DNA from: Terriglobia bacterium | GTDB lineage: Bacteria; Acidobacteriota; Terriglobia; Bryobacterales; Bryobacteraceae | DNA length: 64,000 bases | Assembly (NCBI GenBank): GCA_020073445.1 | Contig: JAIQFE010000007.1 | Span: forward strand, 132,001 to 196,000 | Reading direction: 5' to 3' | Part shown: positions 1 to 64,000 of the stretch, piece after piece | Numbering within the stretch: the first letter of the stretch is position 1 | Layout: every line of letters starts with the position of its first letter | Notes under the pieces: generated by a model | Told to the model about the DNA's origin: nothing | The model's database searches: none | What the model saw: only the letters and a program-made list of their open reading frames with translations | Position numbers and translations under genes: made by a program

Positions 1-1574
1 CCCCAGGCCGCGACGATCACCGCGCTGGTAGTCAGCATTCCCGGCTTCCAGTTGGTCTGGCCCCACTTGGGCGACACTTCTCCCAACATGTCCTGCAACA
101 TGAATCGCCCGACGCGAGTGCCGGAATCGAGCGTAGTCAAGATAAACAGCGCCTCAAACATGATGGCGAAGTGATACCAGAAAGCGAGCAGTGCGCGGCC
201 GACGCCACTCGACGCAAAAATCTGCGCCATGCCCAGCGCGAGCGACGGTGCTCCGCCGGTGCGATAGAACAGCGTCTGTTCGCCGGCTTCCCGCGCCATG
301 GTCTGCATTTCTGCGGCGGTCACCGGGAATCCCCAGCCAGTGATGGTTGCGGCGGCTGCGGCGGGCGTCGTGCCGACAATGCCTGCAGGGGAATTCACCG
401 CGAAGTACACGCCGGGCTGGAGCGAAGCGGCAGCGATTAGCGCCATCACCGCGACGAAACTTTCGAGCAGCATGGATCCATATCCCACCGCCAGTGCGTG
501 GCGTTCCCGTGCGAGCAGCTTAGGCGTCGTGCCCGACGAGATCAAGGCGTGGAATCCGGAAACCGCACCGCAGGCGATGGTGATGAAGCAGAACGGGAAA
601 ATCTTGCCCGCGAAGATGGGTCCGGTGCCATCGACGAATCGCGTAAACGGAGGCAGCTTCAGCTCCGGACGGAGGAAGATAATCCCGACGGCCAGCAGCA
701 CAACGACGCCCAGCTTCACGAAGGTGCTCAGGTAACCGCGCGGGGCGAGCAGCAGCCACACGGGCAGGGCGCTCGAAAAGAATCCGTAGACGATGAGCCC
801 GATGGCCAGGGCCACACCCGAATACGTAAACCAGGGAGCCAGTACGGGAGACTGCGCTACCGCCTGTCCGCCGAAGACGCTGGCCATCACCAGCACGAAG
901 CCGATAAGTGATGTTTCCACGACCTTTCCCGGCCGCCAGAATCGGAGGTACAAGCCCATGAAGACCGCGATGGGCATGGTCGCGACGATGGTAAACGTCC
1001 CCCACGGACTGCCTTTAAGGGCGTTGACCACCACCAGTGCAATCACCGCCAGCAGGATGATCATGATCAGCAGCACCGTGATCAGGGCCGTGAATCCGCC
1101 TACCTTGCCGACCTCCTCGCGGGCGATCTGACCAAGCGACTTTCCGTCGCGCCGGATCGATCCGAAGAGGATCACGAAATCCTGAACGGCGCCGCCCAAC
1201 GTGGCTCCGATCACGATCCACAGGAAGCCCGGGAGATATCCGAACTGGGCCGCCAGCGTGGGTCCCACCAGGGGGCCCGGACCGGCGATCGCGGCAAAAT
1301 GATGTCCGAAGACGATCCACTTATTGGTGGGCTCGAAATCATGCCCGTCGCGCAGCCGTTCAGCAGGAGTGGCGCGTTTGTCGTCCAGGGCCATGACCCG
1401 CGCCGCCACGAATCCTGCGTAGAAGCGGTATCCCACCAGGTAGGTACAGACGGAGGCGATAACCAGCCACGTGCTGTTGACCGGCTCCCCGCGACTATTC
1501 GCGACAGCCCCCATGGAAAAGGCCGCCGCCAAAGATATCGCGCCCCATAGGACGCGCCCCATAATTCGGCTCAT
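1..1574 (-). CDS. cstA: Carbon starvation protein CstA, C-terminus cut by window edge
   Basis: This is a many-pass inner-membrane protein of the CstA family (peptide/pyruvate transporters induced when carbon runs short). Reading the minus strand from ATG at 1574 gives about 524 codons with no stop before the left edge, so the C-terminus is missing. The family signature near residues 74-93 is clear (LRDGHDFEPTNKWIVFGHHF), followed by AGPGPLVGP and a long succession of hydrophobic helices. A purine-rich AAGAAG lies just upstream of the ATG. Family members are usually 550-700 residues, so most of the protein is present. The next gene is divergent. Identity is confident; the transported substrate in this organism is not known. 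Confidence 0.93.
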   Translation of the reverse strand, partial: MSRIMGRVLWGAISLAAAFSMGAVANSRGEPVNSTWLVIASVCTYLVGYRFYAGFVAARVMALDDKRATPAERLRDGHDFEPTNKWIVFGHHFAAIAGPGPLVGPTLAAQFGYLPGFLWIVIGATLGGAVQDFVILFGSIRRDGKSLGQIAREEVGKVGGFTALITVLLIMIILLAVIALVVVNALKGSPWGTFTIVATMPIAVFMGLYLRFWRPGKVVETSLIGFVLVMASVFGGQAVAQSPVLAPWFTYSGVALAIGLIVYGFFSSALPVWLLLAPRGYLSTFVKLGVVVLLAVGIIFLRPELKLPPFTRFVDGTGPIFAGKIFPFCFITIACGAVSGFHALISSGTTPKLLARERHALAVGYGSMLLESFVAVMALIAAASLQPGVYFAVNSPAGIVGTTPAAAAATITGWGFPVTAAEMQTMAREAGEQTLFYRTGGAPSLALGMAQIFASSGVGRALLAFWYHFAIMFEALFILTTLDSGTRVGRFMLQDMLGEVSPKWGQTNWKPGMLTTSAVIVAAW

Positions 1575-1755
1575 AGCTTCTTGATAAGAATAGCCGACCG
1601 GCATGCGAGCTGCATGGTTCGGCGGATAGTTCTAAAGTTGGGACTATTTGAACAGCCCTGGAGAGCCGATTGATTCTACGTGGACATAGGCGGGTACCTC
1701 AGGGAAACACCCGAGGCCGGGTTAAGCGAAATCTCTTGGCGTATAGGGAGATCTC

Positions 1756-1813
1756 TGACGGGAATTGGGGGGAAGAACGATTTGTCGGGACGGCATAAGC
1801 CACGTAGGATCAT
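1756..1813 (+). promoter_or_regulatory. Leader block shared with the 28.3-kb gene
   Basis: The untranslated stretch before the CpaE-like gene contains TGACGG, then after about 31 bases GCATAAGCC, five bases, and GGATC, ending 20 bases before the ATG at 1832. The same words, with the same spacing within one base, occur at 28304-28362 before an unrelated secreted-protein gene. This suggests a common cis-regulatory element or RNA structure. I could not fold it into a known riboswitch. The rest of 1575-1755 shows nothing I can name. Confidence 0.4.
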
Positions 1814-1831
1814 AGGTGAGGGCATTTCTAG

Positions 1832-3040
1832 ATGCTGAGGACAGTAATCATCGGTCCGGACGCCAGGCAGGCGCAACAACTGGAGAAAGCGCTGAGTGCG
1901 CTCGCCAATGAATTGACTGTCAGCCGTACCTTGCTCGCGTATCCCGATGAAGGCGAGCTGATTCGCACGCTTCGCACACACGCCCCCGAAGTCATATTTC
2001 TGAGCTTTGAAAAAAGCGACTTCGCCCTGAAAGTGGTCGAGCGCGTCTGGCAAGAAGTGGAAGGCGTCCAGTTTGTCGCCTATCACCGGGATTGCGACGC
2101 GACGACGCTCCGCGAAATCATGCGCGCCGGAGTGCGGGAACTGGTGGCCGAGCCATTCGAGCTCAGCGCCCTGGTCGAATCGCTGCGGAACGTAAAGACG
2201 CTGGTGGAGCAGAAGCCGCCGACGTACTCGTCCAAGGGGCGGATTTATTCCTTCCTTCCGGCCAAGGCGGGTTCGGGCGCCACCACCATGGCGCTCAATC
2301 TAAGCGCGGCCTTGTCGCGCGTGTCGAATACCCGCGTGCTGCTTTCCGATCTCGACCTGAGCTCGGGCATCCTGCGTTTCCTGCTCAAGATCCGCAATGA
2401 GCACGCGATCATGGAAGTGCTCGATCACATGCATGAGCTGGACGAGAACATGTGGCAGCAACTGGTCACCACCGTGGCCAAACTGGACGTGCTGCACTCC
2501 GGCCCACTGAATCCGAACGTGCGCGTGGAGCCGTCGCAGATTCATGACGTGGCCCAGTTCTGGCTGCGCAATTACGATGTGGTGTGCGTGGATCTTTCGG
2601 GCAACCTGGAACGTTATTCGCTGGAAATCCTTCGCGATTCCCAGCAGGTGTTCCTGGTCTGCACGCCGGAGGTGCCTTCGCTGCACCTGACTCGCGAAAA
2701 GCTCGCGTTTCTCAAGACTCTGGAACTGGACAGCCGCGTCGCGATCGTATTGAACCGGGTCTCCAAGCAGTCGCTGCTGACGCCGCAACAGGTCCAGGAT
2801 GTTCTGGGCGTGCCGGTGATGCACAGCTTCATCAACGACTACCAGGTAGTGAACACCGCCACGCGCGCGGGCGAATTCGTCGATCCCAAATCGAAGCTGG
2901 GCATGCAATTCGCGGAGCTGGCCGGCAGCCTGCTCAATAAACCGAGGGTGGAGACTCCTTCCAAGCGCAAGTTCCTGGAGTTCCTGTCCTCACCAACCCA
3001 GGCGTTGGTTGGCACCCGTAGCGCTCCTTCTTCTCGCTAA
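1832..3040 (+). CDS. CpaE/TadZ-like pilus assembly ATPase
   Basis: The 402-residue protein has the CpaE/TadZ architecture: an atypical receiver-like N-terminal domain (about 1-120) and a ParA/MinD-type ATPase domain (about 135-370). The P-loop region at 143-152 reads AKAGSGATT, so the usual lysines of the deviant Walker A motif are absent, as often in TadZ/CpaE proteins; a Walker A'-like LLSDLDLSSG follows at 170-179. The known role of the family is to localise the Flp/Tad pilus machinery at the cell pole. No other tad/cpa genes are in the window, so it is an orphan here. The ATG at 1832 has only a weak purine stretch (GTGAGGG) upstream. An alternative is a MinD-like positioning protein for another machine. 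Confidence 0.8.
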   Translation: MLRTVIIGPDARQAQQLEKALSALANELTVSRTLLAYPDEGELIRTLRTHAPEVIFLSFEKSDFALKVVERVWQEVEGVQFVAYHRDCDATTLREIMRAGVRELVAEPFELSALVESLRNVKTLVEQKPPTYSSKGRIYSFLPAKAGSGATTMALNLSAALSRVSNTRVLLSDLDLSSGILRFLLKIRNEHAIMEVLDHMHELDENMWQQLVTTVAKLDVLHSGPLNPNVRVEPSQIHDVAQFWLRNYDVVCVDLSGNLERYSLEILRDSQQVFLVCTPEVPSLHLTREKLAFLKTLELDSRVAIVLNRVSKQSLLTPQQVQDVLGVPVMHSFINDYQVVNTATRAGEFVDPKSKLGMQFAELAGSLLNKPRVETPSKRKFLEFLSSPTQALVGTRSAPSSR

Positions 3041-3169
3041 AGGGCTTCCCGCTAAAGGGCCGAGTAAGGGTCCTTAGATCGAATCTCAACGCGGTTTAAG
3101 GTGCCCCGTATGAGTAGGTAGGGTGTGTGCCTGAAGGGCATTTAAACCACTTCCGTGTAAATTGGATGC

Positions 3170-4723
3170 ATGTTCCACTGGATCTGCCCGGAGTGTGGCC
3201 AGGAAATCGCTCCGGGAGTCAAGGAATGTCCGGTTTGTGAGCCCCAGGCAAGCACCTCGCCCCTCCCTTCCGCTGGCCAACCGATTAAAGCCGACGTTGC
3301 ATCGGGAGTAGCCTCTGCTGGGCCTGTGGCGGCCGTAGCCGAGCCGGTGGTCGCAAAGCCCGTCGTCGCCCAGCCGGTCGCTCCGCCTATCGCTGCGCCG
3401 CCTGTTGCCGCGAAGCCAGTAGAAGAGCAGCTGGATCCCGATCCAAGAACCGTTCTGCAGCGCGAAGTCATCCTGCCGCCTGACGCAGTCTTGCAGCCGA
3501 AAGCATTCACCGGATCGAAACCGCCCGTGATGCTCGACGCGATACCGGCGGAAGCGCGGCCGGTGATCATGCCGGACGTGCCGCTGGGCGCTTCGCCAGT
3601 CGAACTGCCGGATCCCTTGCTTGAACCGGTATCTAACGGCCTGCCGCATGCGGAAACATTCGCCGATCGCCTGGCGGATCTGGCGGAACTGCTCCATGGG
3701 GAGCGCGTTCCGTATACTGCCCCGCGACTCTTCCAGGAATCGGCGGCGCCTGGCCCGCGGATGGAAAACAGGGCGCAGGCCGGGGAGAAAACGCCCGTCA
3801 TTGTCGACGTGACATTCCACGAGGATGTGACGCCCGACGGCAAGCCCACGCAGCAGTTACTAGCCGCGCCACCGAGCTTGCTCTTGCTTGCGGAGCCGCA
3901 GCCTCCTTCCGTCGCCAAAGACATACCGATCGAAGCCTTCCAGCCCAAACCGGCGAGCAGCACCGTACGAACCCAACAGACCGCCGCAGTGGAGCCGAGC
4001 GCTCCGGCGGCGGTTATCCTTCCGGATCCCCCGAATCGCGGTGTGGCGCCGGCGCTGGCGTCGCTCCAGGACTATACCGAAACCGCGGAGCGCTTAATGC
4101 ATCCCGCGGACTGCGATACGCCAACTGCCTGCGCGAAAGCGCTGCCAACGGTGACGCTACCGGGTCCGGCTCTCCCGCGCGAGCTGATGTCGCTGCAGGC
4201 GGCAGGCTTGGTTCCGATCGGAAAGGGCGGAAGGCGCGGAGCTGCACTGCCGAGCAGCAACGGCTGGGTGCTGAAATCCGTGGTCGTGGGGATCCTGCTT
4301 ACGGCCGGTTTGGCGACCTACAGCATGATGCCTGGCACCTCCTCGACCAGCGCTCCGCCGAAGCCCACTCCCGAACCGGCGCCCGATCCGCCAGTGTCGG
4401 CGCGCTCCGTCCGGTCCACGAACTCGTTGGCTCGCTTCGTGGAAGTGACCGGCGTCCGCTTCATGGAAGTGAACAAGAAACCCCAGATTCACTACCTGGT
4501 GGTGAATCATTCGAGCGCGCCCCTCAATAGCATGACCGTCTACGTGACTCTGCGGGCTGCGACGGGGAAGCCCGGGCAAGCCCCGATCGCGCGGATCACC
4601 TTCCGCTCGCCCGCACTGGCGGCTTTTGAGGCGAAGGAGATGTTCAGCTCCATCGAGCGTGCGACAGCACAGGTCGACCTGCCGGACTGGCAGGATCTGC
4701 GCGCCGACGTGGAAGTGCAATAA
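3170..4723 (+). CDS. Zinc-ribbon, Pro/Ala-rich single-pass membrane protein
   Basis: I do not recognise a named family. The 517-residue product starts with a zinc ribbon (Cys6, Cys9, Cys20, Cys23; CPECG...CPVC). It continues with a long Pro/Ala/Val-rich low-complexity region, then one hydrophobic helix near residues 364-385, and a compact C-terminal domain (about 410-517) with alternating beta-type hydrophobics (IHYLVVNHSSAPLNSMTVYV). The layout suggests a cytoplasmic zinc ribbon, a disordered linker and a C-terminal domain across the membrane that resembles DUF2393/FxLYD-like folds. The ATG directly precedes FHWICPECG, which fixes the start. It lies 129 bases after the CpaE-like gene on the same strand. 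Function is unknown. Confidence 0.7.
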   Translation: MFHWICPECGQEIAPGVKECPVCEPQASTSPLPSAGQPIKADVASGVASAGPVAAVAEPVVAKPVVAQPVAPPIAAPPVAAKPVEEQLDPDPRTVLQREVILPPDAVLQPKAFTGSKPPVMLDAIPAEARPVIMPDVPLGASPVELPDPLLEPVSNGLPHAETFADRLADLAELLHGERVPYTAPRLFQESAAPGPRMENRAQAGEKTPVIVDVTFHEDVTPDGKPTQQLLAAPPSLLLLAEPQPPSVAKDIPIEAFQPKPASSTVRTQQTAAVEPSAPAAVILPDPPNRGVAPALASLQDYTETAERLMHPADCDTPTACAKALPTVTLPGPALPRELMSLQAAGLVPIGKGGRRGAALPSSNGWVLKSVVVGILLTAGLATYSMMPGTSSTSAPPKPTPEPAPDPPVSARSVRSTNSLARFVEVTGVRFMEVNKKPQIHYLVVNHSSAPLNSMTVYVTLRAATGKPGQAPIARITFRSPALAAFEAKEMFSSIERATAQVDLPDWQDLRADVEVQ

Positions 4724-4795
4724 CGAGGTCTGGTCCAGCCTAAGCGGGCGGATTGCCGCTTGTGCTGACCAAGTTCCGTGAGATGCTGAACTCGA

Positions 4796-5275
4796 ATGGC
4801 TTTGGCACGCCAATCCACCTTTGATCTGCTGCCTCGCACGCGCCCTGGATATGGCTCCCCTAGGAGTGCCCCGTATAAGACTGAACGAAAGTTCTTGGAT
4901 TTTGTCGTTGACCGCGTGTCCTTATACGACACCATTGCCGGTGAACAGGATCTCGCGTCGGCCTTGTGGATAGACCCTCCGGTCCCGAACGAAATTGTAA
5001 AATCCATACGGCGACTACTGTTGCTTGATCCGGGCGACTTACCCAGCGGCCGCGTCTCTCTTTATACCTGCGCCGAGTGTGGTGACTTGGGATGCGGCGG
5101 TCTTACCGTTAACATCCTCCGGCGAGATGAGGACATTGTTTGGTGCGACTTCGGCTACGAGAACAATTACCAGAAGGGTCCGTATCTGGAGCCGTTTCGA
5201 TCCCTCGGTCCCTTTCATTTCGCTCGACGGTCTTACGAGGCGCGACTCATCCCGCTCCTCTCGCAATATTCATAG
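4796..5275 (+). CDS. Small cytosolic protein with C-x2-C-x4-C motif
   Basis: This is a 159-residue protein without signal peptide or membrane helix. It carries a possible metal site at Cys92, Cys95 and Cys100 (CAECGDLGCGGLTV) followed by VWCDFGYENNY. I recall similar short proteins scattered in actinobacteria and other soil bacteria, sometimes as lone accessory genes, but I cannot give a function. No toxin gene is adjacent, so an immunity role would be speculation. Its stop codon overlaps the far end of a decayed TIGR03435 reading frame on the other strand, which marks the left border of the accessory island up to 7183. Confidence 0.6.
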   Translation: MALARQSTFDLLPRTRPGYGSPRSAPYKTERKFLDFVVDRVSLYDTIAGEQDLASALWIDPPVPNEIVKSIRRLLLLDPGDLPSGRVSLYTCAECGDLGCGGLTVNILRRDEDIVWCDFGYENNYQKGPYLEPFRSLGPFHFARRSYEARLIPLLSQYS

Positions 5276-5392
5276 GGCGCCATAGGATTCGAATTGCAAG
5301 CGGTCCGACGCACGCCCTGCGAGCAGGAATGTGACGAACACACGTGGCGTCATGTATCTATTAGCGTGCGGGCTGAGTCGCAAGTTCCAATA
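5270..5392 (-). pseudogene. 5' relic of a second TIGR03435-type gene
   Basis: Right after the stop of the intact TIGR03435 gene, the minus strand shows a copy of that gene's own start region. Bases 5351-5390 match 6168-6206 at about 80 percent, including GTCATGTA, TATTAGC and AAGTTCCAA (plus-strand reading). From the copied ATG (5353) a frame of 27 codons reads like a decayed secretion signal ending in QFES, comparable to KFEVAS in the intact protein, then stops at 5270. It is best read as the left-over 5' end of a tandem paralogue whose body was deleted. Confidence 0.6.
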
Positions 5393-5393
5393 T

Positions 5394-6170
5394 TTAGTTC
5401 TCTGAGGACCGCTCCACGGAATCGACGACCAAATAGTCCACGGGAGCCTTGTCAGGAAACAGTTGTAGTCCCAGCTGCTTTAACGCCTCGGCGAAATCAG
5501 GAGCCGATAATGTTTCAGGTGATAACCTGTCCTGCCTCTTCACCGCAGCCAGGTCTTGTCCGGCAGGCGACGGCATCTTTAAGACGAAGTTGTAGAGTCC
5601 CTGGAGCCCGGTCTGATCGACGACAACGCGGTCCAGCCGCCCGGACAGGATCCCCACGAGCCGAATCATCTCCAAATTGCGGAATGTAAAACCATCGGGG
5701 GTAACGGAAACGCTGTAACCTCCCGCGGCGTCCCCGGCATCGAACTTTGGCCCGCCCGTAGCGACCACCAAACGGTATACCGGACCGGTCTTGGTTTCCC
5801 AGTGGAAGGCTAACTTGAAGCGATCCGCCAAAAGAGACTGAAGCATGAGCCGAAGTTGAGGCTTGGATACGGCCTGATCTGCTTTGGCAACGATATCGTA
5901 ACCCTGGGCAAGCGGAGCCCACAGTGCTTCTTTCGTGAGCGAACCGGGTCCAATGATCCGGCCCACTGGGAAGGTGTATGCCTCTCCGATGATGAACGCG
6001 AGAGAAAGCCCTCCGAAGTTGATTCCTTGCGGGCCGTAAGAAAATAAATTCCGTGGGCCGCCGTTCTGTTCCTTATAAGGCTTGGCCGAGGCCACCTCGA
6101 ACTTCGGAGGAGCTTGCGCGTGTAGGCTGCAACCCATCAGCAGGATTGCGGCGAGTATACATCGAGTCAT
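5394..6170 (-). CDS. TIGR03435-family secreted protein (Solibacter-expanded family)
   Basis: The 258-residue protein (start at 6170, MTRCILAAILLMGC...) has a signal peptide or lipoprotein-like N-terminus. It then shows the family hallmarks: FEVASAKPY just after the signal, a central LLADRFKLAFHWETK block, and C-terminal ALKQLGLQL followed by DYLVVDSVERSSEN. TIGR03435 is a family of unknown function strongly expanded in Solibacter-like Acidobacteriota. A longer frame begins at 6206 but would put 12 residues before the signal, so the inner ATG is preferred. It is transcribed away from the relic 5' end of the downstream DRE-TIM gene and followed at once by a broken paralogue. Confidence 0.85.
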   Translation of the reverse strand: MTRCILAAILLMGCSLHAQAPPKFEVASAKPYKEQNGGPRNLFSYGPQGINFGGLSLAFIIGEAYTFPVGRIIGPGSLTKEALWAPLAQGYDIVAKADQAVSKPQLRLMLQSLLADRFKLAFHWETKTGPVYRLVVATGGPKFDAGDAAGGYSVSVTPDGFTFRNLEMIRLVGILSGRLDRVVVDQTGLQGLYNFVLKMPSPAGQDLAAVKRQDRLSPETLSAPDFAEALKQLGLQLFPDKAPVDYLVVDSVERSSEN

Positions 6171-6222
6171 GTACTTATTAGCTTCGAGGAGGGTCGAAAG
6201 TTCCAAAACATTCTCCGACCAG

Positions 6223-6299
6223 GGGTCTATAATTGTTGGCTATAAACGGCAAGTACTTTGGCGAAAACGAGTGGTGGGCCAGCCCCTATAACTTCGTCC
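6223..6299 (+). pseudogene. Displaced 5' end of the 7184 gene (promoter plus about 18 codons)
   Basis: Bases 6223-6299 match 7164-7241 at about 70 of 79 aligned positions, covering the TATAAT box, the start region and the codons for KYF-ENEWW-SPYNFVP. In this copy the start codon is ATA, one base is lost just before it, and similarity ends abruptly at 6300. Three of the eight substitutions are silent third-base changes (TAC/TAT, AAT/AAC, GTT/GTC), so the two copies look like diverged homologues and not a fresh duplication. The end of the PEP-CTERM gene on the other strand lies inside it. Confidence 0.75.
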
Positions 6300-6867
6300 C
6301 ACTGGTGGAGTGACGCCGACGAAGGGCGACTGCGGTGATGCCAGCAGCCGTCAAAAGCAGCGCCGAGGGTTCCGGTACAATGGAGGCTGTACCCTCGAAG
6401 CCCGGATCGTCGACTGTATTGAAGTTATCCCCGCCGGTGTACGGATTACCGGAGCAGAAAAAAGAATTGTCGCAAGTGAAGGCAAACCACCGAATGCTTG
6501 CCGGCGCAGTGGGAGTAGTCACGAGCGCGTCGAAACCGCCCAGCGAGTTTCCAGAACCGATCGCGTCCGGGCTGAATCCTACAATAACCCAGTTGTTATT
6601 GTAGACCGTGGAGGAACCGCCAAAGCTGCTATTGGACCACGTGGGCCAGATCGTGGGATACCACCCTGTTGGGGAACCTGTTACGTCAGGCACTGGCAGT
6701 AGCACACCGAAAAAATATAGTTCTTGATTTGTGGTGTTGTCTACCGTGAAATCCAGGCTCCAATTGCCCGCTGAACCGCCCACGGTGTACGTGACGATTG
6801 GCTCTGCCGACAACGTCCCCAACGCAAGGATGAGCAACATCGCCTTGCGACCCGCATGACTTACCAT
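6286..6867 (-). CDS. PEP-CTERM secreted protein
   Basis: The 193-residue product has a signal peptide (about 1-21) and a Ser/Thr/Asn/Gly-rich beta-type body. Its C-terminal sorting tail is VPEPS (164-168), then a hydrophobic helix (168-182) and RRR (183-185): the classical PEP-CTERM signal that exosortase/archaeosortase-like systems recognise, usually on exported proteins tied to extracellular polymers. GAGGAGG lies five bases before the ATG at 6867 and fixes the start. The last four codons and the stop fall inside the relic of the DRE-TIM gene on the opposite strand, so the present C-terminus was partly formed by the insertion junction. No exosortase gene is in the window. Confidence 0.85.
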   Translation of the reverse strand: MVSHAGRKAMLLILALGTLSAEPIVTYTVGGSAGNWSLDFTVDNTTNQELYFFGVLLPVPDVTGSPTGWYPTIWPTWSNSSFGGSSTVYNNNWVIVGFSPDAIGSGNSLGGFDALVTTPTAPASIRWFAFTCDNSFFCSGNPYTGGDNFNTVDDPGFEGTASIVPEPSALLLTAAGITAVALRRRHSTSGTKL

Positions 6868-7183
6868 ATAGCCTCCTCATTCCTTAGTTTTCCGCTTAAA
6901 TGACTACTTATCGCAGAGTTCCACTTTGTAGTTCCGAATAGATCGTAGATATATAATATATTCAACGCTCACGGCTGGGGCCAAATCTTTCAGTGGCCTT
7001 GCAGTCATCTAGTACTGGTACGAACCAGATAGTGGGCTCAATCCTTCGCGGTGCTTGGACACTCCCTCGTCCCAGATACGCTTCTTTACTCAACTCATGC
7101 CTCCCGTGGGAACTGAGCCGGTGCTCAGTTTTAGCGGACCCCTCGTCGCCCAACGTCTACTCCGGGTCTATAATTGTTAGCTG
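6868..7183. other. 316-base gap: AT-rich patch, hairpin and promoter
   Basis: No convincing gene is present. The gap holds an AT-rich patch around 6950-6962 (GATATATAATATATTC), a 7-bp hairpin at 7111-7130 (AACTGAG / CTCAGTT, loop CCGGTG) followed by a short T run, and the TATAAT promoter of the next gene at 7169-7174. A 63-codon open frame on the minus strand (6962-7153) has no ribosome site or recognisable domain, and I leave it uncalled. GC content drops compared with the neighbouring genes, in keeping with acquired DNA. Confidence 0.5.
7169..7174 (+). promoter_or_regulatory. -10 box TATAAT placed for a nearly leaderless mRNA
   Basis: A perfect TATAAT ends ten bases before the ATG at 7184, so transcription should begin at or within a few bases of the start codon. 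No Shine-Dalgarno sequence is present between them. The same box is kept in the relic copy at 6228-6233. No good -35 hexamer is visible. Confidence 0.5.
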
Positions 7184-8404
7184 ATGAACGACAAGTACTT
7201 TCGCGAAAACGAGTGGTGGGTCAGCCCCTACAATTTCGTTCCTGAAGTCCGGAACACCTATCAACTTCCGAAGACCGTAAGCATCCACGACGCGACGCTG
7301 CGCGACGGTGAACAGACGCCCGGCGTGGTGATGAGCATCAAGGACAAAATCGAGATTGCCGAGAAGCTGGACGAGATCGGCGTCGACCGGATCGAAGCCG
7401 GGATGCCGGCGGTCTCCGGAATGGACTTTGAGGCCATTAAGCAGATCTCGAAGCTGGGGCTCAAGTCGAAGATCTACACCTTCGCGCGCGCCATCAACGC
7501 CGATATCGACAAGGCGATCGAATGCGGCTGCCACGGCGTGATCATCGAAGTGCCTATCGGATATCCCAAGCTTAAGTACCAGTTCAAGTGGACCTGGGAA
7601 GACGTGCTGCGCAAGAGCGTTCCGGTGATCAACTATGCCAAGTCGCGCGGCATGCACGTGGTGTATTTCCCCTACGACACGACGCGTGCGCTGGAAAGCG
7701 ATCTGAGCAACGTTCTGACGCGTATCATGCAGGAAGCGCCTCCGGATGCGGTGGGCGTGGTCGACACCATGGGCTGCATTCTTCCCGAAGCCATGAAGTT
7801 CATGGTCCGCATGGTGAAGAAGCTGACCAACAACTTGCCGGTGGAAGTTCACACGCACAACGATTTCGGCATGGCGGTCGCCACCGAGCTGGCCGGAGTC
7901 GAAGCGGGAGCGGATTGCGTCCATAGTTGCGCGAACGGACTAGGCGAACGCACGGGCAACGCCGCGCTCGAAGAGTTGATTGTCGCGCTGCACGTGCTCT
8001 ACGGGTTCGACACGAAGTACAAACTGGCCAAGCTCCCAGAACTGGGCGAACTAGTCAGCCGCATCGCGCGGTTCCCCATCGCGGCGAACAAGCCGATCCT
8101 GGGCGACCGCAACTTCACGCGCGAATCGGGCATTGGTGTCGACCTAGTGGTGAAAGAGCCGCTGGCGATGTTCGGGACGCATCCCGCGCTGACCGGTCGC
8201 AAGGGCGAAGTGGTCCTGGGCAAGAAGAGCGGCAAGCTCTCGATTACCTACAACCTGGAAAAGCTGGGCATCACGGATGCGGACGACGAAGCGATCGGCG
8301 AAATGCTGAAGCGCGTCAAGGACAAGGGCATCGAGAAGCGCGGCTTGCTGACGGACGACGAGTTCCGCGAGATCGTCGACAGTGTTCTAGTGGCTAAGCG
8401 GTAG
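7184..8404 (+). CDS. Homocitrate/isopropylmalate synthase-like DRE-TIM enzyme
   Basis: The 406-residue protein belongs to the HMGL-like/DRE-TIM metallolyase family. HDATLRDGEQTPG at 35-47 contains the conserved Arg40-Asp41, the metal-binding HxH lies near 223-227 (VHTHNDFGMA), and NGLGERTGNAALEE near 250 is the family signature. Members are acyl-CoA-dependent synthases (LeuA, NifV, homocitrate or citramalate synthase) or pyruvate aldolases (DmpG type). No leu, lys or nif genes are nearby. Instead it is followed by a deacetylase and LigJ on the same strand, so a role in the same catabolic route, perhaps aldol cleavage of the LigJ product, is possible but unproven. The next gene's TTG abuts the TAG stop. 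Confidence 0.8.
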   Translation: MNDKYFRENEWWVSPYNFVPEVRNTYQLPKTVSIHDATLRDGEQTPGVVMSIKDKIEIAEKLDEIGVDRIEAGMPAVSGMDFEAIKQISKLGLKSKIYTFARAINADIDKAIECGCHGVIIEVPIGYPKLKYQFKWTWEDVLRKSVPVINYAKSRGMHVVYFPYDTTRALESDLSNVLTRIMQEAPPDAVGVVDTMGCILPEAMKFMVRMVKKLTNNLPVEVHTHNDFGMAVATELAGVEAGADCVHSCANGLGERTGNAALEELIVALHVLYGFDTKYKLAKLPELGELVSRIARFPIAANKPILGDRNFTRESGIGVDLVVKEPLAMFGTHPALTGRKGEVVLGKKSGKLSITYNLEKLGITDADDEAIGEMLKRVKDKGIEKRGLLTDDEFREIVDSVLVAKR

Positions 8405-9040
8405 TTGGCCAAAGTCACACTAACTTTCGACAACGGCCCGGAATCGCAAGTCACGCCACAGGTCTTGGATTGCCTCGCGCATCATGGCGTGAAGTCGACC
8501 TTCTTTGTGCTGGGGCGGAAGGTCAGTACGCCCGCGGGTCTCGACCTCGCTCGCCGCGCGAGCCGGGAAGGGCACTGGATCGGCAATCACACGTGGTCGC
8601 ACATAGGACGCATGGGCGAGGGCACCGGCGAGGCGGCACTTCAGGAATTTGAGCGTACCGAACAAGCTCTTTCGTGGGTCAAGCAACCAGTGCCACTGTT
8701 CCGTCCTCGCGGAGGCGCGGGGAAGCTCGGCAAGGGTCTGCTGCATCCCGCAGTGGTCGAGCGGCTCACGCTGGGCGGGTATACCTGCGTGCTGTGGAAC
8801 TCCGTCCCGGGGGATTATCGCGACCCGGATGGCTGGATGGAGCGCGCGCTGGCCGATTGCCGGACCCGCGAATGGAGCCTCGTGGTCCTGCACGATCTTC
8901 CCAACGGCGCCATGCTGCACCTGGATGGCTTCCTTCGGAAGCTGCGGGAGGAGGGGTATCAACTCACCCAGGATTTTCCGCCGGAGTGCACGCCGATTGT
9001 CGGCGGCAAAATCGTGCAGCCACTGGATGGATTTTTGTAA
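8405..9040 (+). CDS. NodB-homology polysaccharide deacetylase family protein, altered metal site
   Basis: The 211-residue protein shows the NodB fold: motif 1 TFDNGPE (7-13), motif 2 NHTWSH with His62 and His66, and a Phe-Arg-Pro motif (LFRPRGG). In motif 1 the usual TFDDGP has Asn10 in place of the second Asp, normally a metal ligand, so activity may be changed or lost. No signal peptide is present, so it is probably cytoplasmic, unlike wall or chitin deacetylases. The TTG start follows the previous stop with no gap and the motif begins at residue 7, so this start is almost forced and translation is coupled. Context (LigJ downstream) suggests a small-molecule amide or ester hydrolase. Confidence 0.75.
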   Translation: MAKVTLTFDNGPESQVTPQVLDCLAHHGVKSTFFVLGRKVSTPAGLDLARRASREGHWIGNHTWSHIGRMGEGTGEAALQEFERTEQALSWVKQPVPLFRPRGGAGKLGKGLLHPAVVERLTLGGYTCVLWNSVPGDYRDPDGWMERALADCRTREWSLVVLHDLPNGAMLHLDGFLRKLREEGYQLTQDFPPECTPIVGGKIVQPLDGFL

Positions 9041-9052
9041 GCTTGAGGATTC

Positions 9053-10069
9053 ATGATCATCGATTGTCACGGCCACTACACCACGGCGCCCAAGGCGCTT
9101 CAAGATTATCGCGATGCGCAGACTGCCGCATTGAAGGATCCCACGCAGCCCCCATACGATGGCAAGATCAACATTAGCGACGACCAGATTCGGGAGAGTC
9201 TGGAAGGCGCCCAGTTGAAGCTCCAGCGCGAGCGCGGCACCGACGTCACCATCTTTTCGCCGCGAGCTTCGGCAATGGCGCATCATATTGGCACCGCGAC
9301 GACCAGTTCAGATTGGTCGCGGCATTGCAACGATCTGATTCATCGCGTTTGCACGCTCTATCCCAGCAACTTCGTGGGCGTGTGCCAGCTGCCGCAATCG
9401 CCGGGTGTGCCGCCTCAGAACGTCATCGCCGAGCTGGAGCGCTGCGTGAACGAGTTCGGTTTCATCGGCTGCAATCTGAATCCCGATCCTTCAGGAGGCC
9501 ACTGGACCGCCCCCGCGCTCACGGACAAGTACTGGTATCCGGTGTACGAAAAGATGGTGGAGCTGGATGTGCCCGCGATGGTGCACGTCAGTTCGTCATG
9601 CAACCCCGTGTTCCACGCGACCGGCGCGCATTACATCAATGCGGACACCACGGCATTCATGCAATTCATCCAGGGCGATCTGTTCAAGGATTTTCCAACG
9701 CTGCGGTTCATCATTCCGCACGGCGGGGGTGCGGTTCCGTTCCATTGGGGCCGCTATCGCGGTCTCGCGCAGGACATGAAGCGTCCGACGCTCGAGGAGC
9801 ACGTTCTGAAGAACGTGTATTTCGACACCTGCGTGTATCATCTGCCGGGAATCGAGCTGCTGCTGAAAGTAGTGCCGGTGGACAACATCCTGTTCGGATC
9901 GGAGATGGTGGGCGCGGTGCGCGGTATTGATCCTCGAACGGGGCAATACTACGATGACACCAAGAAGTATCTGGATGCGCTGCCGCTAAGCGATGGCGAT
10001 CGCTACAAGTTGTTCGAAGGTAACGCGCGCAAGGTATATCCGCGCATCACAAAGAAACTTTCCAAATAA
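9053..10069 (+). CDS. ligJ: 4-oxalomesaconate hydratase LigJ
   Basis: This 338-residue amidohydrolase-superfamily protein closely matches LigJ of Sphingobium, starting MIIDCHGHYTTAPKAL and including FSPRAS, LNPDPSGGHW, TGAHYxNADTTAFMQ and SEMVGAVRGIDPRTG-YYDDTK. Zinc ligands known in LigJ (His6, His8, His178, Glu284) fall at exactly these positions. LigJ hydrates 4-oxalomesaconate to 4-carboxy-4-hydroxy-2-oxoadipate in the 4,5-cleavage route for protocatechuate and gallate in the cytoplasm. TGAGGA precedes the ATG by a few bases. It is third in a tight plus-strand trio. The 3' end overlaps the convergent methyltransferase-like gene by 23 bases. LigI, LigK and ring-cleavage genes are absent from the window. 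Confidence 0.92.
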   Translation: MIIDCHGHYTTAPKALQDYRDAQTAALKDPTQPPYDGKINISDDQIRESLEGAQLKLQRERGTDVTIFSPRASAMAHHIGTATTSSDWSRHCNDLIHRVCTLYPSNFVGVCQLPQSPGVPPQNVIAELERCVNEFGFIGCNLNPDPSGGHWTAPALTDKYWYPVYEKMVELDVPAMVHVSSSCNPVFHATGAHYINADTTAFMQFIQGDLFKDFPTLRFIIPHGGGAVPFHWGRYRGLAQDMKRPTLEEHVLKNVYFDTCVYHLPGIELLLKVVPVDNILFGSEMVGAVRGIDPRTGQYYDDTKKYLDALPLSDGDRYKLFEGNARKVYPRITKKLSK

Positions 10070-24344: not shown

Positions 24345-25332
24345 GTGAGGTAACCGCGGCGGCCACGCTCGGAATAATTTTGCTCAGGATGGTTTCCGGA
24401 GTTTGCCCTTCCGCGTGGGCGTCGAAATTCAGAATGACCCGGTGGCGCAAAACCGCGGGCGCGATGGTGTCCACGTCTTCGATCGAAAGATGCAGCCGGC
24501 CCTTCATCAGCGCGAATACACGTCCGCATTCGACCAGCGCCTGCGCCCCGCGCGGCGAACTGCCATATCGGATGAACTTCTTGGACAGCTCGTGTGCTTC
24601 GGCCGCGTCCGGCTGCGTGGCCATCACCAGGTTGATGGCGTGATCCTGTACGTGCGGGGCAACTAAAACCTGATGGCAGGCGGCGCGCAATTCCAGGATC
24701 TCCTCACGCGTGACCACGGGCGACACTTCGATCTCATCCTTTTGGCTCGTGCGTTCGACGATGGTGCCTAGTTCGGCGCGCGTAGGGAAGCGCACCAGGA
24801 TCTTCATCAGGAAGCGATCGAGCTGCGCTTCCGGAAGAGGATACGTTCCCTCCATCTCGATCGGATTCTGCGTCGCCATCACCAGAAACGGAGGCTCCAG
24901 TTCCATGGTCTGCGTTCCGCTGGTGACGGTGTGTTCCTGCATGGCTTCAAGCAGCGCGGACTGCGTTTTCGGCGTCGCGCGATTGATCTCGTCCGCCAAA
25001 ACCAGATGCGCAAAGATCGGACCCGGCGAGAAGCGTAGAGCCTTGGTTCCGCTCTCGCTATCGATGATCATGCTGCCCACGATGTCGGCGGGCATCAGGT
25101 CGGGTGTGAACTGGATGCGCGAATACTTCAGGTGCATCACCTTGGATAGGGTCCTCAGCAGTGTGGTCTTGCCCAGCCCCGGAACGCCTTCGAGTAGTAC
25201 GTGGCCGCCCGCCAGCAAACAGATAAGCACGCCGTCGACGACATCCTGCTGTCCTACGATGATCTTTCCGATTTCTTCGCGAACGCGGTTGAGCTTCGAG
25301 GTCGCGAGCTGGAGGGCGGTATCTGGCTGCAT
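24337..25332 (-). CDS. MoxR-family AAA+ ATPase
   Basis: The 331-residue protein has Walker A GVPGLGKTTLL (Lys55), Walker B VLADEINRATPKTQSALLEAM, sensor MATQNPIEMEGTYPLPEAQL and the arginine-rich lid typical of MoxR. MoxR ATPases act as chaperones that insert metals or activate partner vWA proteins. It leads the four-gene minus-strand operon and is divergent from the 25428 gene. The family assignment is firm; the client process is unknown. Confidence 0.93.
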   Translation of the reverse strand: MQPDTALQLATSKLNRVREEIGKIIVGQQDVVDGVLICLLAGGHVLLEGVPGLGKTTLLRTLSKVMHLKYSRIQFTPDLMPADIVGSMIIDSESGTKALRFSPGPIFAHLVLADEINRATPKTQSALLEAMQEHTVTSGTQTMELEPPFLVMATQNPIEMEGTYPLPEAQLDRFLMKILVRFPTRAELGTIVERTSQKDEIEVSPVVTREEILELRAACHQVLVAPHVQDHAINLVMATQPDAAEAHELSKKFIRYGSSPRGAQALVECGRVFALMKGRLHLSIEDVDTIAPAVLRHRVILNFDAHAEGQTPETILSKIIPSVAAAVTSRA

Positions 25333-25427: not shown

Positions 25428-26324
25428 ATGATTAGAATGCCCAGAAGAAACGCGATCGCGATCGCCGCAGTTGTGATGTTCCTTGCCTTTTCATTGGCCA
25501 TCTTTGCGCAATGGCCGTCGTTTCCCACGCCGGGATCTCCTAAACTGGCGAACGGACAACCGGATCTGAACGGACCGGCACCGAAGACGGCCGACGGCAA
25601 ACCGGACCTTTCGGGTGTATGGAGCGCTCCGCGCGGCGGTCCCGGAGGACCGGGTGACGGGAAAGGGAAGGGAAAGGGTCCTGGCGGTCCACCTCCGCCT
25701 CCTCCACCCCCGTCCAACGGGAAAGCGGGATATCCGCAAGGCGGGTTCCAGAATATGGCACAGAACATGCCGGGCGGCTTACTGCCCTATCAGGAATGGG
25801 CGCTGAAGCTGCGCAATGAACGTCTGGCGGAAAACAGCAAAGACCATCCCGACGCTCACTGTCTGCCTTTGAACCCGGTGCAGTTGTGGTTTCATCCGCA
25901 GCCTCGCAAGCTCATCCAAAACACCCGCGAGATCGTGATGCTTGCCGAGTCGAACGGAGGCACGCGCCAGATCTTCACCGATGGCCGTGCGCTTCCCAGC
26001 AAAGACGATGTGCAGCCCTGGTGGTACGGCTACTCCGTAGGAAAGTGGGAGGGCGACACGCTGGTGGTGGAGTCGACCGGCTTCCTGGATAACGGATGGA
26101 TCGATGAAAACGGCAGCCCCATAACCAATGAAGCTCATGTGACGGAGCGCATCCGCCGGCCCAACTACGGGACGCTTGAGGTGGAAGTGACAGTGAACGA
26201 TCCCAAGACTTACACCCGGCCGTGGACGGTTACCGCGAACCAGCGCCTGATGCCCGACGATGAACTGATCGAGTTCATCTGCGGGGAAAACAACAGGAGC
26301 ACTCCCCACCTGGTCGGCAAATAG
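25428..26324 (+). CDS. Acidobacterial secreted protein with Gly/Lys and polyproline insert
   Basis: The 298-residue protein has a signal peptide (about 1-27, ending near FAQ), two DGKPDLSG-like motifs (PDLNGPAPKTADGKPDLSGVW), a low-complexity insert of Gly-Lys repeats and eight prolines (about 66-95), and a C-terminal domain of about 190 residues with WWYGYSVGKWEGDTLVVEST and NEAHVTERIRR. The GDTLVVEST / DGKPDLSGVW pair is common in large families of secreted proteins in Solibacter-like genomes, function unknown. The ATG follows 95 bases of divergent promoter region shared with moxR. Confidence 0.7.
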   Translation: MIRMPRRNAIAIAAVVMFLAFSLAIFAQWPSFPTPGSPKLANGQPDLNGPAPKTADGKPDLSGVWSAPRGGPGGPGDGKGKGKGPGGPPPPPPPPSNGKAGYPQGGFQNMAQNMPGGLLPYQEWALKLRNERLAENSKDHPDAHCLPLNPVQLWFHPQPRKLIQNTREIVMLAESNGGTRQIFTDGRALPSKDDVQPWWYGYSVGKWEGDTLVVESTGFLDNGWIDENGSPITNEAHVTERIRRPNYGTLEVEVTVNDPKTYTRPWTVTANQRLMPDDELIEFICGENNRSTPHLVGK

Positions 26325-26325
26325 A

Positions 26326-27264
26326 CTATCTGAGCCCGACCGATCCTCTTGTCACGCGATCGACGAACAGCTCGAGAAAGGCTGGCGCGTTTACTTTGAC
26401 TGCAACCTGTGTCTTGGACCCGGCCGATGGCTTGAACATCGTTTGCCCGGGGCCAGATAGCGGTACGTCGACCGTGCCGGCTTGCATCTCGAGTAAGTCT
26501 GGTCGAAAAATGGCCGCGATGGCCAGAGGATCGTACAGAGTAGGATTCGGCTCGTGGCTCTGTTCCTCGGCCAGATCCACCAGGTGAATCAGGAATTTCG
26601 CCGCGGGATCGTCGGCGATACGCATGCGGTCCAGATCCTTCTCGCGCAGCTTGCACTGCGACGTCACATCGAGGCCGACGGCGGTGATCGGGATGCCGGA
26701 GCTAAAGACAATCTCCGCGGCGGCACGATCGCGCTTCACGTTGTATTCGGATTCCGAGCTGAGGTACGCACCTCCCATAATCACGATCCGTTCGATATTG
26801 TTTTTGATGCGCGGATCGGTCTTCAGTGCCAGCGCGATGTTGGTCATCGGGCCGATGGCGACGATCGTAATCTTGCCCCTCGATTGCAACGCTGTATCTA
26901 TGATGAGATCCGCCGCACGCTTGCGCGCGGTCTCAGGAATGACATCGTTGCGCGTCAGGACGTCGAACTCTTTGGACGGGACCGACGTCGTGGGGTCGAG
27001 CAGTGGCTCGGACGCGCCCATCGCCAGGGCAATGTCTCGGCGATTGTAGACGCTCAGCATCTTCCACGCGAGACGAGTCTTGCTCTCGACGTCATCGATC
27101 ACCGTGGTTACGGCCCGTACGTCCAATTCCGGCGAATGCAGCGCGAAGGCGAGCGCCAGAGCGTCGTCAATCGAGTCGCCGATGTCGGTGTCGAGGATGA
27201 TGGGGATGCGCTGTGCGGACGCAGAAACGCATGCTAGTACGACGAACGCGACCAACTTCCACAT
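26326..27264 (-). CDS. Exported inosine-uridine-type nucleoside hydrolase
   Basis: From ATG at 27264 the 312-residue protein has a signal peptide (MWKLVAFVVLACVSASAQ). The nucleoside hydrolase Asp cluster follows at once (IILDTDIGDSIDDALALAFA), then GPMTNIALAL, YNVKRDRAAAEIVF and the late TLYDPLAIAA with the calcium-binding Asp. The family hydrolyses ribonucleosides to base and ribose; export points to nucleoside scavenging. A frame extension to 27306 would precede the signal and is rejected. The gene is preceded by the four-hairpin repeat and ends two bases from the convergent 25428 gene. Confidence 0.88.
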   Translation of the reverse strand: MWKLVAFVVLACVSASAQRIPIILDTDIGDSIDDALALAFALHSPELDVRAVTTVIDDVESKTRLAWKMLSVYNRRDIALAMGASEPLLDPTTSVPSKEFDVLTRNDVIPETARKRAADLIIDTALQSRGKITIVAIGPMTNIALALKTDPRIKNNIERIVIMGGAYLSSESEYNVKRDRAAAEIVFSSGIPITAVGLDVTSQCKLREKDLDRMRIADDPAAKFLIHLVDLAEEQSHEPNPTLYDPLAIAAIFRPDLLEMQAGTVDVPLSGPGQTMFKPSAGSKTQVAVKVNAPAFLELFVDRVTRGSVGLR

Positions 27265-34287: not shown

Positions 34288-34325
34288 ACTTCTGCTTAGA
34301 TTGTAGCCCTCGCCCTGACAGGTGG

Positions 34326-34415
34326 AAAAAGGGGACAGGCTATTCTGTCCCCTCCAGTAAGCTCCTGACTTCGCCGGTCAGCGTGGGAGTGGACAGAGCT
34401 GCCTGTCCCCTTTTT
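34326..34415. repeat. 90-bp palindromic element, copy 1
   Basis: The ends AAAAAGGGGACAGGC and GCCTGTCCCCTTTTT are perfect 15-bp inverted repeats. Inside, GGGGACAG can pair with CTGTCCCC at 34345-34352, and GGACAG/CTGTCC forms a third hairpin, so alternative folds compete. It lies six bases past the GNAT stop. A second 90-bp copy is at 41782-41871. Both strands end in a T run, so it may act as a two-way terminator. Confidence 0.8.
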
Positions 34416-34421
34416 CTTTCA

Positions 34422-41753: not shown

Positions 41754-41781
41754 GTCCCGACATAGATGATGGGGCCGGGCG

Positions 41782-41871
41782 AAAAAGGGGACAGGCTACT
41801 CTGTCCCCTCCCGTAGGGTTCTGACTTCGCGTGCCATCGTGGGAGTGGACAGAGCTGCCTGTCTCCCTTTT
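41782..41871. repeat. 90-bp palindromic element, copy 2
   Basis: The same layout as 34326-34415: AAAAAGGGGACAGGC at the left, GCCTGTCTCCCTTTT at the right, and internal GGGGACAG/CTGTCCCC. It lies three bases past the stop of the GAF-ANTAR gene, on the same side of a minus-strand gene as copy 1. The right arm carries a T insertion that breaks perfect symmetry, suggesting age. Confidence 0.8.
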
Positions 41872-41874
41872 CAG

Positions 41875-62268: not shown

Positions 62269-64000
62269 TTAGGGCGTCGGCACAGTCGCGGCTGCCTGAG
62301 CCGAAAAGACACTCTCGTTGCCGTTGGCATCCACCGCGGTACTCACATAGTAGTAAGTTTGACCAGCCTGAACCGTTGTGTCGATATACTGAAGCCCGCC
62401 GATCGGAGCTCCATTGAGCTTCGTATAGGGCCCACCTGAAGTCGTGCTCCGATACACGTTGTAGCTCACACCTGGAGTGATGCTTGCAATCCAGCTCAGC
62501 GTCGCGCTGTGTGACACGGGAACCGGCGATTGAAGTGAGGTGCCACCCGTTGAGGCATTCATATCCGCCTGAATCTCAGCGGCAGATAACGCACGATTGT
62601 ATATTCGGACCTCATCGAGACTGCCATTGAAGTAGTTGCCCACAGGTGCGTATCCGGCCTGGCCGACCAGCAGGAACGCATAGTTGCTGCCCGCCCCGGT
62701 CACTTTGAGCGGAGAAACCGAGCTCAAGGCACCATCCACGTAGAAAGAGACGTTGTTGTTCAGACTGATCGTGACCGCGATGTGGTGCCACTGACCGTCA
62801 TTCACCTTAGCCGTGTCGTTCGCGATCTTATTGCCATAAACGGCAGCGTTATAGGTGCCCACTTCCAAGGCCAAGGTGCCGGCTGCGGTGGTCCTCAAGA
62901 CATAGCCGTAGCCTTGCGTGTCGTACTTGGCGATGAACGCTTCGCTGCGGCTGGAATTGGTCGTCTTGATCCATGCGGCCAGAGTGAGATCTTTGTTGAG
63001 CTCGGCCTGGCTGGCGTAGCCCATATTGATCGAACCGTTGTTCGAGAAGGCGTAGGCGTCTCCCACCTGTCCGGACGTCCGGGTAATGGAACCCGATAGG
63101 GTACCGGTGTAGCCATTGCCGGATTTGTCGAACGCCTGTGTACTGCTGGTGTCGGCAGCATCAAAAGTCCAGCGACCGATTAACCCTGTTGGCAACGTCG
63201 TGAGTGTCGGAGTCGGGGTGGGCGTCGGAATTGGCGTCGGAGTCGGAGTCGGGGTGGGAATCGGTGTGGGATCAGGTGTCGGTGTTGGGGTGGGAGTCGG
63301 GGTGGGAGTCGGGGTGGGAGTAGGATCAGTGGTGCCGACTGTGCCAGTAGAGAGTCCGTTGATTTCGCTTGACGAAAGCGCTCTGTTGTAAATCTGTACT
63401 TCATCGAGACTGCCATTGAAGTAGTTGCCCACAGGTGCGTATCCGGCCTGACCGACTAGCAGGAGCGCGTAATTGCTGCCTGCCCCGGTCACTTTGAGCG
63501 GAGAAACCGAGCTCAAGGCACCATCCACGTAGAAAGAGACGTTGTTGTTCAGACTGATCGTGACCGCGATGTGGTGCCACTGACCGTCATTCACCTTAGC
63601 CGTGTCGTTCGCGATTTTGTTGCCATAAACGGCGGCGTTGTAGGTGCCCACTTCCAAGGCCAACGTGCCGGACGCGGTGGTCCTCAAAACATAGCCGTAG
63701 CCTTGCGTGTCGTACTTGGCGATGAGCGCCTCACTGCGGCTGGAATTGGTTGTTTTAATCCACGCAGCCAGCGTGAGATCTTTATTGAGCTCGGCCTGGC
63801 TGGCGTAGCCCATATTGATCGAACCGTTGTTCGAGAAGGTGTAAGCTTGTCCCACCTCTCCGGAAGTTTGCGTAATTGCACCCGACAGCGTACCTGTGTA
63901 GCTGTTGCCGGATTTGTCAAAGGCTTGCGTACTGCTGGTGTCGGCAGCATCAAACGTCCAGCGGCCGATTAAGCCTGTCGGCAACGTCGCAGGAGTCGGT
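62269..64000 (-). CDS. Secreted LamG/Fibronectin type III protein, N-terminus outside window
   Basis: The frame is open to the right edge; the TTG at 63984 is not the real start because the reading continues as a Pro-Thr linker (PTPAT). It contains two nearly identical LamG (concanavalin-like) domains ([60 protein letters not shown]), joined by a Pro-Thr repeat linker, and a C-terminal fibronectin type III domain (about the last 90 residues, [20 protein letters not shown]). Such proteins bind glycans or mediate surface contact. More LamG units probably lie beyond the edge. No sortase or PEP-CTERM tail is visible at the C-terminus. Confidence 0.88.
62580..63978. repeat. Two LamG-encoding DNA units, 789-bp period
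   Basis: Bases 62580-63189 and 63369-63978 are almost identical and lie 789 bases apart, each encoding one LamG domain. Most differences are single bases. The linker between them is a separate Pro-Thr repeat (63190-63335). Recent duplication or gene conversion is the simplest cause. Confidence 0.85.
63190..63335. repeat. Pro-Thr linker minisatellite
   Basis: Six-base units of GTCGGn type (plus strand), that is Pro-Thr codon pairs on the coding strand, repeat about 20 times with occasional Ile, Asp or Leu codons. Such tracts gain and lose units easily by slippage without breaking the frame. Confidence 0.85.

Follow-up and report, generated by a model that had tools for sequence, protein, structure and literature searches.

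The 64,000-nucleotide window analysed here (G000:C83:132001-196000) comes from a Bryobacterales-type (Acidobacteriota) draft genome of 6,579,597 bases (6.58 Mb) in 102 contigs, and the feature under study is a gene start that occurs twice in it, on either side of a short segment carrying another gene. The gene whose start is duplicated, at 7184..8404 on the forward strand, encodes an HMGL-like (DRE-TIM) protein of 406 amino acids (aa), recognised by a match to PF00682. An earlier note on this DNA had described the duplicated 5′ end, and it is real: self-comparison of the window recovered a direct repeat between 6223-6300 (78 nt) and 7164-7242 (79 nt), with 88.6% identity over 79 columns, an E value of 8e-21 and a spacing of 941. 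Each unit consists of GGGTC-TATAAT, 9 nt, the start codon and the first 19-20 codons of the HMGL-like gene. The right copy (7164..7242, forward strand) is intact, with TATAAT at 7169-7174, 9 nt and an ATG at 7184 that opens the 406-aa open reading frame (ORF), and it is thanks to this copy that the gene is complete. The left copy (6223..6300, forward strand) is decayed; it retains TATAAT at 6228-6233 and the former first 19-20 codons, but the start codon is lost, as had been claimed, with ATA at 6242 in place of ATG, one base missing just before it, and D, R and V changed to G, G and A. The spacing between TATAAT and ATG is conserved in two relatives, G014 and G019, and is one base shorter in two others, G020 and L077. 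Because this layout is kept in relatives, the transcript of the HMGL-like gene is probably leaderless or nearly so.

Between the two copies lies a segment of 863 bp (6301..7163), with a guanine-cytosine (GC) content of 0.540, that is not at this site in the four closest relatives (G014, G019, G020 and L077) and has no DNA match in the 22 other genomes of the genus that were searched. Its gene, at 6286..6867 on the reverse strand, has its last codons and stop inside the left copy and encodes a 193-aa PEP-CTERM protein (TIGR02595, 21.1 bits against a cut-off of 16) that is probably exported. At an E value of 1e-6, this protein is present in 3 of 151 genomes, which are its own and those of two relatives in other genera with 46 and 40% identity. 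The homologue in G096 stops directly past its arginine cluster, and the window protein is about 8 residues longer, its stop being supplied by the left copy. The DNA to the left of the left copy is likewise non-native, which had been overlooked in the earlier note. This second stretch of 1.5 kb (~4727..6222; GC 0.558, with 0.609 for the window) runs from the upstream gene to the left copy and has no counterpart at this site in G014; the upstream gene itself (3170..4723, forward strand, 517 aa) is the native left neighbour in G014, G019 and G020. The stretch contains a 159-aa ORF (4796..5275, forward strand) without a family match, found at an E value of 1e-4 in 1 of 151 genomes, its own, and a TIGR03435/DUF3738 gene (5394..6206, reverse strand, ATG probably at 6170) assigned by family match, whose best relative among the matches listed outside its own genome has 65% identity and belongs to another genus. 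Both would have been placed to the left of the left copy by a separate second event. Directly behind the stop codon of the TIGR03435 gene sits a decayed second copy of its own 5′ end (5322..5390, reverse strand), 74% identical to the other copy at 6139-6206 with a spacing of 817; its alignment score is 64, compared with a maximum of 34 in 500 shuffles, and it resembles the leftover of a lost tandem copy. When 4724-7183 was searched as DNA against 23 genomes of the genus, the matches away from its own locus were confined to the gene-start unit and to short pieces within or beside the TIGR03435 gene. None of the three ORFs of the non-native DNA at this locus matched an integrase or transposase family in Pfam, NCBIfam, PADLOC or PHROGs, in line with the claim that the insertion holds no integrase.

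Each of the four closest relatives contains one copy of the gene-start unit, and the doubled arrangement is therefore derived in this lineage. Both units were compared by BLAST with 20 of 41 loci, and more than one gene-start place was never found in a locus, the other matches being just one of 12 nt and one of 13 nt. The uninterrupted gene can be seen intact in these relatives, which agrees with the proposal of an insertion into the 5′ end that left a full start behind; the arrangement that would have spoken for an old duplication, with both copies and the PEP-CTERM gene in all relatives, was not found, 4 of 4 being single-copy. In G014, the upstream gene is followed by a spacer of about 40 bases and the HMGL-like gene, and in G019 about 0.3 kb separates the same two genes. 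In G020, 3.9 kb of other cargo lies between them, and L077 has the same cargo as far as its contig limit, so the spacer upstream of the HMGL-like gene seems prone to insertions. By reading, this cargo in G020 (L039 7746-11525) and L077 (1-2609) comprises a BlaI-like regulator and two fusions of BlaR1-like peptidase and TIGR03435-like domains, of which L077 contains the second only in part. The L061 and L077 contigs, which carry a Bryobacterales-type HMGL-like gene, are filed under Bordetella and Phycisphaerae assembly names and probably stem from mislabelled or contaminated bins.

The same scar is found twice more in the genome, around cargo other than PEP-CTERM genes. A survey for direct repeats of 25-160 nt with at least 80% identity and a spacing of 300-6000 was carried out over 861,000 of the 6,579,597 bases (13%, window included). 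Of the 13 rows obtained, 4 look like one dispersed family (C83:75-77 kb); the repeat at the HMGL-like gene and two on contig C24 rank highest among the other 9. The comparison with empty sites covered these three; the remaining six rows start at C24:67639, C24:180726, C39:123326, C63:100303, C63:45762 and C63:101713. The first sister event is an insert of 1466 bp (C24:255273-256738) between 64-bp units at 255209-255272 and 256739-256802. This site is empty in both G014 and G020, where exactly one 64-bp unit is present (target overlap -64 in both), and in comparison with them each flank is continuous with its adjoining unit, on the left as on the right; G019 has no match to the insert either. 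One side of the unit is formed by the final codons of a membrane-type ORF (65 codons, found in G020 as well), the other by the promoter and GTG start of a PAP2-family gene; both are left whole by the duplication. The cargo is a 428-aa protein with weak, below-cut-off similarity to I-set. At the second sister event, an insert of about 1.6 kb (C24:24690-26303) lies between units of 65-72 bp (24620-24691 and 26299-26370), and the site is empty in G020 with a 65-bp overlap (-65) and flanks in register. Here, the unit covers the final 20-odd codons of a frame that has 342 codons in this genome and in G020 alike and looks like a threonine aldolase gene; an initial assignment of the unit to the end of a PqqD-like gene was ruled out because it ends the 342-codon frame. 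In G014 and G019, the gene to the right of this site is in the opposite orientation, and no match to the insert was seen among the matches listed. The cargo encodes two proteins, one of 197 aa and one of 257 aa that has a phosphodiester glycosidase domain. The three ORFs of the sister events matched no recombinase family in a search of Pfam only, and no restriction-modification family was found among the ORFs scanned in all three inserts.

The suggestion that other PEP-CTERM genes might be flanked by duplicated gene starts was not borne out, none being recognised at the 20 other PEP-CTERM loci listed. Self-repeats occur at 6 of these 20 and lie inside coding sequence in two (L109 and L112) and involve neighbouring PEP-CTERM genes on contig C9 in three (L116, L118 and L120). 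At the sixth, L127 (G000:C101), a 31-bp direct repeat lies on either side of a PEP-CTERM gene (453-483 and 1424-1453; 97% identity, 971 apart), and the core of this repeat occurs exactly at only those two places in the genome and at two more places with 2 mismatches; none of the stretches of relatives used for comparison matched this locus. When 21 PEP-CTERM and 30 TIGR03435 loci were inspected for repeats, the locus described here appeared in both sets, and the rest were tandem paralogues, intragenic or short. The genome as a whole holds 21 PEP-CTERM and 33 TIGR03435 matches, and neighbours of each kind can be seen on C9 (C9:12931-15121 and C9:24330-26995).

Insertions were also surveyed independently of cargo, as extra DNA of at least 300 bp in this genome relative to alignable orthologous stretches of relatives. 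The 8 loci obtained comprise the two clean duplications of 64-65 bp, the locus at the HMGL-like gene, one poor 33-bp match and four without overlap. The poor match (C24:52876-53848) corresponds to 973 bp of extra DNA compared with G020; its 33-bp overlap is degraded and the copies match poorly, and it was left out of the count. It may be the trace of an earlier event of the same type, and it adjoins what appears on reading to be an asparaginyl-tRNA synthetase gene. The GC content of the three counted inserts is 0.517-0.550, compared with 0.606 for C24 and 0.609 for the window, and that of the four insertions without overlap is 0.594-0.611. Extra DNA in G014 or G020 was found at 12 loci, with overlaps at two, both in G020, of 28 and 12 bp.

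These observations are probably best explained by insertion of a captured foreign segment with one gene at the start of the HMGL-like gene, in which a target of about 78 bp was duplicated, by what we infer to be fill-in of a staggered break. Long duplications of variable length without a recombinase point to such a break filled in around captured DNA. The event would begin with a double-strand break whose nicks lie about 60-80 nt apart; both sides would be filled in and closed around captured linear DNA, probably by end joining, as Ku is encoded. A search for Ku alone detected it in 4 of 4 genomes, as against 1 of 14 controls, which makes end joining a plausible route. Insertions would then be retained by selection where the duplication spared the genes on both sides, and this would account for the position of all three units on gene ends. 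With a divergence of 7-11% between the two copies across the three events, these events are old. A more general proposal, which we put forward tentatively, is that Bryobacteraceae gain single genes by a recurrent recombinase-free route, in which linear DNA is end-joined at wide staggered breaks and the survivors carry duplications of 30-80 bp that spare both neighbours. If true, three cases in 13% of the genome would correspond to roughly twenty per genome, and soil bacteria would be gaining a sizeable number of genes through a hidden channel.

The differences between the two copies bear on whether the duplication arose in place. Over the 59 nt from the ATG onwards there are 7 of them, of which 4 are derived in the left copy and 3 in the right when G014, G019 and G020 serve as reference, as expected of an in-place duplication with one copy decaying and the other under selection. 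Each can be explained by a change in one copy after such a duplication; the earlier idea that one copy came from a diverged homologue is thus not required, although weak signals favour it. Two candidate signals of origin did not survive closer comparison. Native, G014-like spacer sequence upstream of the right copy seemed to be supported (2 of 1000 shuffles for G014, 15 of 1000 for G019), but without the shared GGGT the values were 871 of 3000 and 137 of 3000 and the signal was gone. A G020-like origin of the left copy, based on a shared CCGACCA, was weak (25 of 1000 and then 279 of 3000) and was dropped.

Several points weigh against insertion with in-place duplication of the target. The break-repair step is inferred from the form of the sequence, and because the left flank of the left copy is non-native at the HMGL-like gene, the empty-site proof is weaker there than for the two sister events. 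As many as 5 of the 8 loci of the insertion survey are without a clean duplication (one of these being the poor 33-bp match), and the rate is biased, two of the three positives having been found by their repeats before the contigs of relatives were chosen. The HMGL-like gene has a synonymous divergence (dS) of 0.49 to G020 over 297 codons. On a clock with simple assumptions, a pseudogene dating back to the split from the relatives should have gathered more changes than the left copy shows (P 0.0004), and the right copy has rather many for a young duplication (P 0.026). Changes in this genome are also concentrated at the start of the gene, 5 of the 10 in 660 nt falling within its first 92 nt (P 0.007); the comparison with G019 was used only to about nt 660, there being an indel beyond. 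These clock and clustering signals are weak and fit import of one copy as well.

Such import is the main rival: in the donor DNA, the PEP-CTERM segment would already have adjoined a homologous gene start, and entry would have been by homology-facilitated illegitimate recombination, with a homologous crossover at one end and illegitimate joining at the other, or as a circle by a single crossover, so that one copy is foreign. Besides the clustering at the gene start, the 3 changes of the right copy, silent by reading, are absent from the left copy and from the relatives, and at the C24:255 kb event 4 of the 6 differences are derived in the right copy, none in the left and 2 are ambiguous. The C24:24.6 kb event is mixed, with 3 left-derived and 2 right-derived differences and G020 as the only reference, and divergence from relatives beside the units is not clearly raised at C24:255 kb and only slightly raised in the HMGL-like gene. 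The divergence comparison showed no clear donor tract beside the units, its signals being weak and conflicting, and reading of the 1.5-kb flanks of the PEP-CTERM homologue in the two other genomes that have one revealed no HMGL-like ORF. To our knowledge, a long target duplication is not the usual mark of homology-facilitated illegitimate recombination. The process is known, according to passages of PMC3240628, in three competent species and Escherichia coli, and as described there it likewise integrates foreign DNA without a transposase, by means of one homologous end. On this balance, donor import is an unlikely but serious alternative.

A longer tandem duplication followed by a deletion that left a partial gene start, with the PEP-CTERM gene already adjacent, would also produce two copies, and both the remnant of the TIGR03435 5′ end at 5322-5390, which looks like a decayed tandem copy, and the several TIGR03435 genes that lie side by side in the genome speak for such a history. 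It needs at least two precisely placed events, whereas one step is enough to account for the sister events, in which both flanks align without a break to the empty site, and we regard it as improbable. A site-specific element that has lost its integrase could also be proposed, with the repeats as attL and attR, since they are direct, lie at a gene start and leave a full start on the right. No integrase family occurs in the ORFs scanned, G020 and L077 carry other cargo upstream of the HMGL-like gene without a second unit, and the three inserts share neither target nor ends; the differing sequences of the units largely refute this idea, which is accordingly given very little credence. The longest exact match between the ends or units of the three inserts is 6 nt, and a common att-like site or common mobile ends were ruled out, no motif longer than that being shared. 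A chimeric assembly of strain variants might be suspected in a draft of 102 contigs, but copies that differ by 11% and the same architecture at two other loci with flanks in register make it just as far-fetched. The longest exact match between inverted ends was 7 nt within 40 nt of the ends, and the duplications measure 64-79 bp; unlike an insertion sequence or DNA transposon, these inserts thus have neither terminal inverted repeats nor a short duplication of fixed length.

Insertion with duplication of the target at its start, as preferred above for the HMGL-like gene, has a precedent in insertion with long target duplication, described from two Helicobacter pylori genomes (Nobusato et al. 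2000, as recounted in passages of PMC1643837, PMC3031569, PMC3154945, PMC3874152 and PMC4978471) with a duplication "in the order of 100 bp" (excerpt of PMC3874152). As in those accounts, related genomes differ by an insertion at a site that is collinear apart from it, here at the HMGL-like gene and the two sister sites; the duplication is long, variable and single at the empty site (78/79, 64 and 65-72 bp, with both flanks shown at the sister events only); and the movement is unlinked to a known mobile element, no transposase or integrase being seen in the ORFs scanned. The insert in H. pylori is, in the same passages, frequently a restriction-modification system, which is not given there as a requirement, whereas the inserts here encode PEP-CTERM, I-set-like, 197-aa and phosphodiester glycosidase proteins, and the phylum, Acidobacteriota, is also different. 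No report of such an insertion in Acidobacteriota was found among the papers listed by full-text literature searches, and a query combining Acidobacteria with target duplication turned up only an IS6/IS26 paper. The event fits insertion with long target duplication, with a cargo and phylum that differ from those of the H. pylori cases. A little-studied pattern known from H. pylori restriction-modification genes is thereby extended to other kinds of genes in Acidobacteriota, with a simple reason offered for scars on gene ends, namely that the duplication keeps both neighbours whole. A foreign gene enclosed by the two copies of a gene end can be recognised as such a scar, and gene gains free of mobile elements can be counted by it.

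In patch-mediated double-strand break repair, known from eukaryotes, a widely staggered break yields direct duplications of tens of bases with filler DNA between them; it would leave a similar scar. SXT is a mobile element that enters the 5′ end of prfC, supplies a new start and carries an integrase; as with SXT, the host gene here retains a promoter and start, and unlike SXT no integrase was recognised and there is no common att core. Transposed genes of Arabidopsis, in excerpts of PMC2869330, are flanked by direct repeats longer than 30 bp, which in 13 of 18 cases correspond to the sequence at the orthologous site of a relative. They share with the present locus a moved gene between direct repeats and differ in belonging to a plant, and in the same excerpts the authors weigh circles that re-enter by homology beside target duplication.

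The HMGL-like protein falls under the curated cut-off of every one of the 25 NCBIfam models shown and may represent an uncharacterised enzyme family, no named synthase cut-off being reached among those shown. Its relatives at 61-80% identity are found in Rhodoplanes, other Rhizobiales, spirochaetes and Bryobacterales, and within 7184-10069 of the window its gene is followed by polysaccharide deacetylase and amidohydrolase genes. Other repeats can also be seen in the window, with a 604-bp direct repeat at its end (62597-63200 and 63386-63989; 91% identity, spacing 789) and a 92-bp repeat (34325-34416 and 41781-41872; 88% identity, 7.5 kb apart) with a portion that matches in the reverse orientation as well. 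The dispersed repeat family (L167 15149-17173, G000:C83:75149-77173; L200 2971-3118) carries a stretch like TCGGTAGGCAGTCCCCA at its ends and has a REP-like look.

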